43,985 bases of DNA, taken from Nanobdellota archaeon. Lineage in GTDB: Archaea > Nanobdellota > Nanobdellia > Parvarchaeales > Parvarchaeaceae. The stretch lies in NCBI GenBank assembly GCA_021851145.1, contig JAJZJK010000003.1, forward strand, positions 1 through 43,985, given 5' to 3'. A model generated the notes under the pieces. It was given only the letters and a program-made list of their open reading frames with translations, was not told where the DNA came from and did no database searches. Numbering within the stretch: the first letter of the stretch is position 1; every line of letters begins with the position of its first letter. Shown piece by piece: positions 8,394 to 38,063 of this stretch. The position numbers and the translations under genes were made by a program.

Positions 8394-8505
8394 TGGGGTT
8401 GCCAGGATTTGAACCTGGGTCAAGCGGTTTCTTCTTAATCATCCTTAACGTCATGTTTCCAGACAAGCTGGAGCCGCCTATTCTGCCTGGTTAGACTACA
8501 ACCCC
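8394..8505 (-). tRNA. tRNA-Trp (CCA) with a ~39-nt intron at 37/38
   Basis: Acceptor GGGGTTG/CAACCCC, T-arm CCAGG-TTCAAAT-CCTGG, anticodon stem GGCGG/CCGCT, loop CTCCAG^...^A; 112 nt total, 73 nt exonic. Confidence 0.88.
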
Positions 8506-9678: not shown

Positions 9679-9727
9679 AATTCTATTTTATAAAGCCCCT
9701 TAGTATTTATACTTTTTTAATCGCATA

Positions 9728-9810
9728 TGCAGAGGGAGGGATTTGAACCCTCGAAGGCCTAAGCCATAAGGTCCTTAGCCTTACACGTTTGACCGCTTCG
9801 CTACCTCTGC
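9728..9810 (-). tRNA. tRNA-Leu with anticodon AAG
   Basis: Acceptor GCAGAGG/CCTCTGC, type II variable arm, anticodon stem TAAGG/CCTTA, loop CTAAGGA. Confidence 0.88.
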
Positions 9811-9906
9811 ATCATAGTTTAAAAAGGGCTTATAATAAAACGCTTACTATTCATAATCTATTTATACTATAAAAATTGATTTATACACTTAAAACGATTT
9901 AAAACT

Positions 9907-11624: not shown

Positions 11625-11698
11625 TGGGGTGGCTGGGATTTGAACCCAGGTCAACTAACCCCCGAAGCTAGCATCATACCAAGCTAGATCACCACCCC
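11625..11698 (-). tRNA. tRNA-Pro (CGG)
   Basis: GGGGTGG/CCACCCC acceptor, anticodon stem CTAGC/GTTAG, loop TTCGGGG, T-arm CTGGG-TTCAAAT-CCCAG. Confidence 0.9.
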
Positions 11699-37980: not shown

Positions 37981-38063
37981 TGCAGAGGGAGGGATTTGAA
38001 CCCTCGAAGGCCTAAGCCATAAGGTCCTAAGCCTTACACGTTTGACCGCTTCGTTACCTCTGC
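37981..38063 (-). tRNA. tRNA-Leu (UAG)
   Basis: Same fold as 9728..9810, anticodon loop CTTAGGA; 81 of 83 positions identical by my reading. Confidence 0.92.

Follow-up and report, generated by a model that had tools for sequence, protein, structure and literature searches.

A leucine tRNA gene with adenosine at the wobble position

The window, that is, the whole stretch of 43,985 nucleotides that we analysed, carries two leucine tRNA genes of nearly identical sequence (table 1). The first of them lies on the minus strand, where ARAGORN places a tRNA-Leu(aag) at 9727-9811, while Rfam model RF00005 matches 9728-9810 over its full length (1-71) with 58.3 bits, and both indicate a complete cloverleaf with the long variable arm of an elongator type II tRNA-Leu. 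The anticodon loop reads C32 U33 A34 A35 G36 G37 A38. Thus, the tRNA-Leu with A34 proposed from the sequence by a first-pass annotation is an intact gene. The 81/83 identity to tRNA-Leu(UAG) reported there is also correct, the mismatches falling only at sequence positions 10 and 35, which correspond to position 10 and wobble base 34; with a body so similar, the AAG tRNA is presumably charged with leucine. The host is indeed an archaeon, a Parvarchaeum-like member of the DPANN, represented by an assembly (G000) of 588 kb in 50 contigs, 63% complete. Introns occur in many of its tRNAs, tRNA-Trp being one example (table 1).

Table 1. tRNA genes and features of the window relevant to the AAG locus
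Feature	Position	Strand	Remarks
tRNA-Leu(AAG), A34 isoacceptor	9728..9810	-	Intact cloverleaf, no encoded CCA; ARAGORN, Rfam RF00005, orthologues
Anticodon AAG	9774..9776	-	T at 9776 is read as A34 on the minus strand; sequence and ARAGORN
tRNA-Leu(UAG) paralogue	37981..38063	-	Differs at position 10 and at the wobble base
tRNA-Pro(CGG)	11625..11698	-	Conserved neighbour of the AAG locus; isoacceptor Pro(AGG) elsewhere in the genome
tRNA-Trp(CCA)	8394..8505	-	Conserved alongside the AAG locus; contains a 39-nt intron

Occurrence of A34 in the leucine and proline boxes of the family

In a tRNA search of 55 relatives, with loci called by ARAGORN, the AAG gene was found in 30 of the 32 genomes of the family (Parvarchaeota), the two genomes lacking it being drafts (92% and 66% complete). 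The locus is often syntenic, with tRNA-Trp and tRNA-Pro(CGG) frequently kept alongside. Copies carrying A34 are identical over 82 nt (100%) in the independent assemblies of G001, G003, G009, G021 and G025, and such identical genes in independent species rule out a sequencing error at the wobble base. The first-pass annotation had noted that its reading would fall if relatives carried the same gene with TAG; they too have A34. Overall, tRNA-Leu(AAG) is a real, functional-looking, old and lineage-wide gene.

For complete tRNA sets we relied on three near-complete members of the genus, G015 (100% complete), G004 (98%) and G022 (98%). All three possess the leucine anticodons AAG, UAG and CAG; UAA and CAA are present as well in G015 and G004, and ARAGORN called neither in G022. 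A survey for the GAG isoacceptor, as the first-pass annotation had suggested, found none in these sets or in the window's own, incomplete (63%) genome, and the G34-Leu search pattern had no match anywhere in the family. The proline sets of the same three genomes show a similar composition, with AGG, UGG and CGG and no GGG, the latter being found in two outgroup families. In the remaining four-codon boxes (Ala, Arg, Val, Thr, Gly and Ser) G34 is present wherever these three genomes have a called tRNA with a purine at position 34. Among the 28 genomes of the genus, 19 have Pro(AGG), one of them the window's genome, where it lies beside tRNA-Arg(GCG) (G000:C8:28822-28896) and constitutes the organism's second A34 tRNA. 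In G022, the Pro(AGG) gene (L170:155-242) contains a 14-nt intron after position 37; the ARAGORN output, with a Ser(AGA) and no Pro(AGG) in this genome, was a miscall, as reading the sequence revealed. In both switched boxes G36 ends the anticodon and G37 comes next. The same two bases occur in Arg(CGN), yet GCG is kept in the family. We propose that in this family tRNA-Leu(AAG) anciently displaced tRNA-Leu(GAG), the isoacceptor usual in archaea, and that tRNA-Pro would have undergone a parallel swap from GGG to AGG.

Distribution of A34 across the class

The A34-Leu pattern was found in at least 113 of the 378 genomes of the class, under 19 family labels, with about 60 of these genomes belonging to a single family, f5 (Pacearchaeota); the G34-Leu pattern matched 45 class genomes, of which about 37 were judged by eye to be genuine, and both counts are lower bounds given that the patterns require a particular T-arm. 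The G34 matches of G071, G244, G338, G347, G376, G177, G088 and G354 are by eye not ordinary leucine tRNAs and were set aside. ARAGORN confirmed Leu(aag) at all 30 class loci that were read, and made the same call on each of the contigs, at least 107, that the genome collection yielded. Two of the records, titled Patescibacteria group bacterium (L347 and L350), contain an archaeal-type tRNA-Leu(AAG) and are probably mislabelled archaeal MAGs.

No class genome combines A34-Leu with a genuine G34-Leu (hypergeometric probability 9e-7, relatedness ignored). Family f28 is mixed, with A34-Leu in G249 and G320 and G34-Leu in G077, G161 and G266; the presence of both types in different genomes of one family implies that the switch took place more than once, or was reversed. 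The same family should be a good place for timing the switch. Outside the Parvarchaeota, pattern matches to Pro(AGG) were obtained in 15 genomes, and in all 12 of these whose loci were read ARAGORN calls Pro(agg). The Pacearchaeota and other lineages of the class have likely undergone the same replacement of GAG by AAG, probably by separate events. We are fairly confident that A34 replaced G34 repeatedly and independently, in leucine and proline tRNAs, over much of one archaeal class, with CUC and CCC being read either by unmodified A34 or by way of an A34-modifying enzyme new to archaea.

Search for an A34 deaminase

Whether a deaminase is present was judged from profile searches of MAGs. As anticipated by the first-pass annotation, no TadA/ADAT homologue was recognised in the window's genome. 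The sole match there to PF00383/PF14437 is a ComEB-type dCMP deaminase, which we rejected as TadA: it is closest to ComEB (133 bits, below that model's cut-off of 219) and scores just 28 bits to TadA. Neither PF00383 (E<=0.1) nor PF14437 (E<=0.01) had a match in G015, G004 or the four family members of other genera, and the ADAR/Tad1-type domain PF02137 had none in any of the 55 genomes, on which ground we rejected the Tad1/ADAR route. The A34-specific deaminase that an I34 system has to encode was thus not found in G015, G004, the other genera of the family or the window's genome. Among the A34 genomes outside the family, 59 of 80 lack any protein matching NF008113, a TadA model, with E<=0.001. 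The other 21 match it weakly, none reaching the cut-off of 150, which is a strict one (5 of 14 control genomes pass). The proteins of five A34 genomes outside the family (L426, L427, L428, L429 and L430) score 83-99 bits against this model and may be TadA-like.

Codon use and the reading of CUC

The sampled genes of the window's genome contain 85 CUC against 720 CUU codons, as counted from a crude ORF calling, and so CUC must still be read. In G000, G015, G004 and G022, four related genomes of one genus, CUC has the lowest of the 16 NNC/(NNC+NNU) ratios, and only within this genus is its avoidance strong. Its relative use is lower in A34 genomes than in six G34 genomes (Mann-Whitney p = 0.006-0.018, values that are optimistic since the genomes are related). 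Three f5 (Pacearchaeota) genomes gave a mixed picture, with clear CUC avoidance in one of the three. For proline, G000 and G015 show a depletion of CCC that is not seen in G004 and G022.

Tests in E. coli provide a frame for these numbers: an unmodified AAG tRNA with G37 reads U and C at a ratio of 87:13, and an AGG tRNA without inosine at 56:44 (PMC11066159). The tRNA-Leu(AAG) described here shares G37 with the AAG tRNA of that test. CUC avoidance is what would be expected from an A34 that prefers U, and the Parvarchaeota pattern, with strong avoidance of CUC and inconsistent avoidance of CCC, fits an unmodified A34. In this scenario the A34 of the AAG tRNA would stay mostly unmodified, CUU being read through Watson-Crick pairing and CUC through a weak A-C wobble; Pro-AGG would read CCU and CCC more evenly, and the UAG and CAG tRNAs would cover CUA and CUG. 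We think it likely that the family has a functional, anciently fixed tRNA-Leu(AAG) in place of the archaeal GAG, with the same swap in tRNA-Pro and with A34 mostly unmodified.

Alternatively, an unrecognised enzyme, either a highly divergent protein of the TadA fold or an unrelated deaminase, might convert A34 to inosine, so that the tRNAs work as IAG and IGG. A34 elsewhere is almost always I34, and archaea do make methylinosine at position 57 (PMC8072771); furthermore, the mutual exclusion of G34 and A34 is the usual I34 pattern, and a few A34 genomes encode the TadA-like proteins mentioned above. We nevertheless regard this scenario as unlikely, given that G015 and G004 have no protein of the cytidine-deaminase or ADAR fold, and that the avoidance of CUC in Parvarchaeota is the opposite of what an inosine reading C efficiently would predict. 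The modification state of A34 decides between this enzyme and decoding by unmodified A34.

A still less probable scenario, to which we give little credit, is that the UAG tRNA superwobbles over all four CUN codons, leaving AAG as a mere helper for the abundant CUU. CUU is the commonest CUN codon, and the low use of CUC would agree with weak reading. Nonetheless, the retention of AAG across a family of reduced genomes, where it replaces GAG exactly, suggests a need for it. Moreover, U34 is usually modified in archaea (PMC8879553).

Relationship to the UAG paralogue

The AAG and UAG genes lie at distinct loci on the same contig, with some 25-60 kb between them, in G000, G025, G013, G008, G016, G005, G015 and G004, and their anticodons differ in all 24 same-genus genomes in which both genes were called. 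In G004 the wobble base is the sole difference between them. AAG and UAG genes from one genome resemble each other slightly more than shuffled pairs do (p = 0.013, with length differences inflating the counts in two genomes), which suggests occasional homogenisation of two old genes with the wobble difference retained. The near-identity of the pair seems better explained in this way than by a recent duplication. That tRNA-Leu(UAG) was recently duplicated in this genome and then mutated at the wobble base, as the first-pass annotation had envisaged from there being just two differences between the genes, and that this was of no lasting consequence, is hardly credible in view of the separate loci with anticodons that always differ, the orthologous and often syntenic AAG genes found family-wide, which refute it, and the absence of the G34 isoacceptor throughout.

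Comparison with known systems

Reviews describe ANN anticodons and A34 deaminases as missing from archaea (PMC8007984, PMC8072771, PMC8879553) and hold that A34 is almost universally avoided in its unmodified form (PMC8007984, PMC8072771, PMC8879553, PMC11066159). Recurrent use of A34 across a clade, in two boxes of archaeal tRNAs and apparently without TadA, contradicts the supposed absence of A34 from this domain, and offers natural material on why A34 is normally excluded and on whether A34 tRNAs precede the deaminase in evolution. An archaeal tRNA-Leu(AAG) is in itself already known: that of Ferroplasma acidarmanus fer1, where GAG is likewise absent, was traced by Wu et al. (2018) to a G-to-A substitution in GAG (PMC6000648). 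However, that is a single species-specific case, whereas here A34 is family-wide, extends over 19 families of one class and includes Pro(AGG). In the open-licence literature searched we found nothing relevant on the anticodons of Parvarchaeota or Pacearchaeota tRNAs, nor any report of the family-wide fixation, the class-wide recurrence, the extension to proline or the lack of a known deaminase.

Outside the archaea, three systems show similarities. The eukaryotic I34 set also has A34 in the leucine and proline boxes to the exclusion of G34, but it comes with ADAT2/3; here no ADAT was found, and only two boxes are changed. In Lactobacillales and Oenococcus, A34 likewise replaces GAG in the leucine CUN box, as tRNA-Leu(IAG), although these bacteria use TadA and inosine, whereas no TadA was found in the most complete carriers studied here. 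The third is the tRNA-Arg(ACG) of Mollicutes lacking TadA, with A34 in reduced genomes without a deaminase (PMC3711424). That case concerns the bacterial arginine box, in contrast to the archaeal leucine and proline boxes described here, in which the UNN and CNN isoacceptors are kept.
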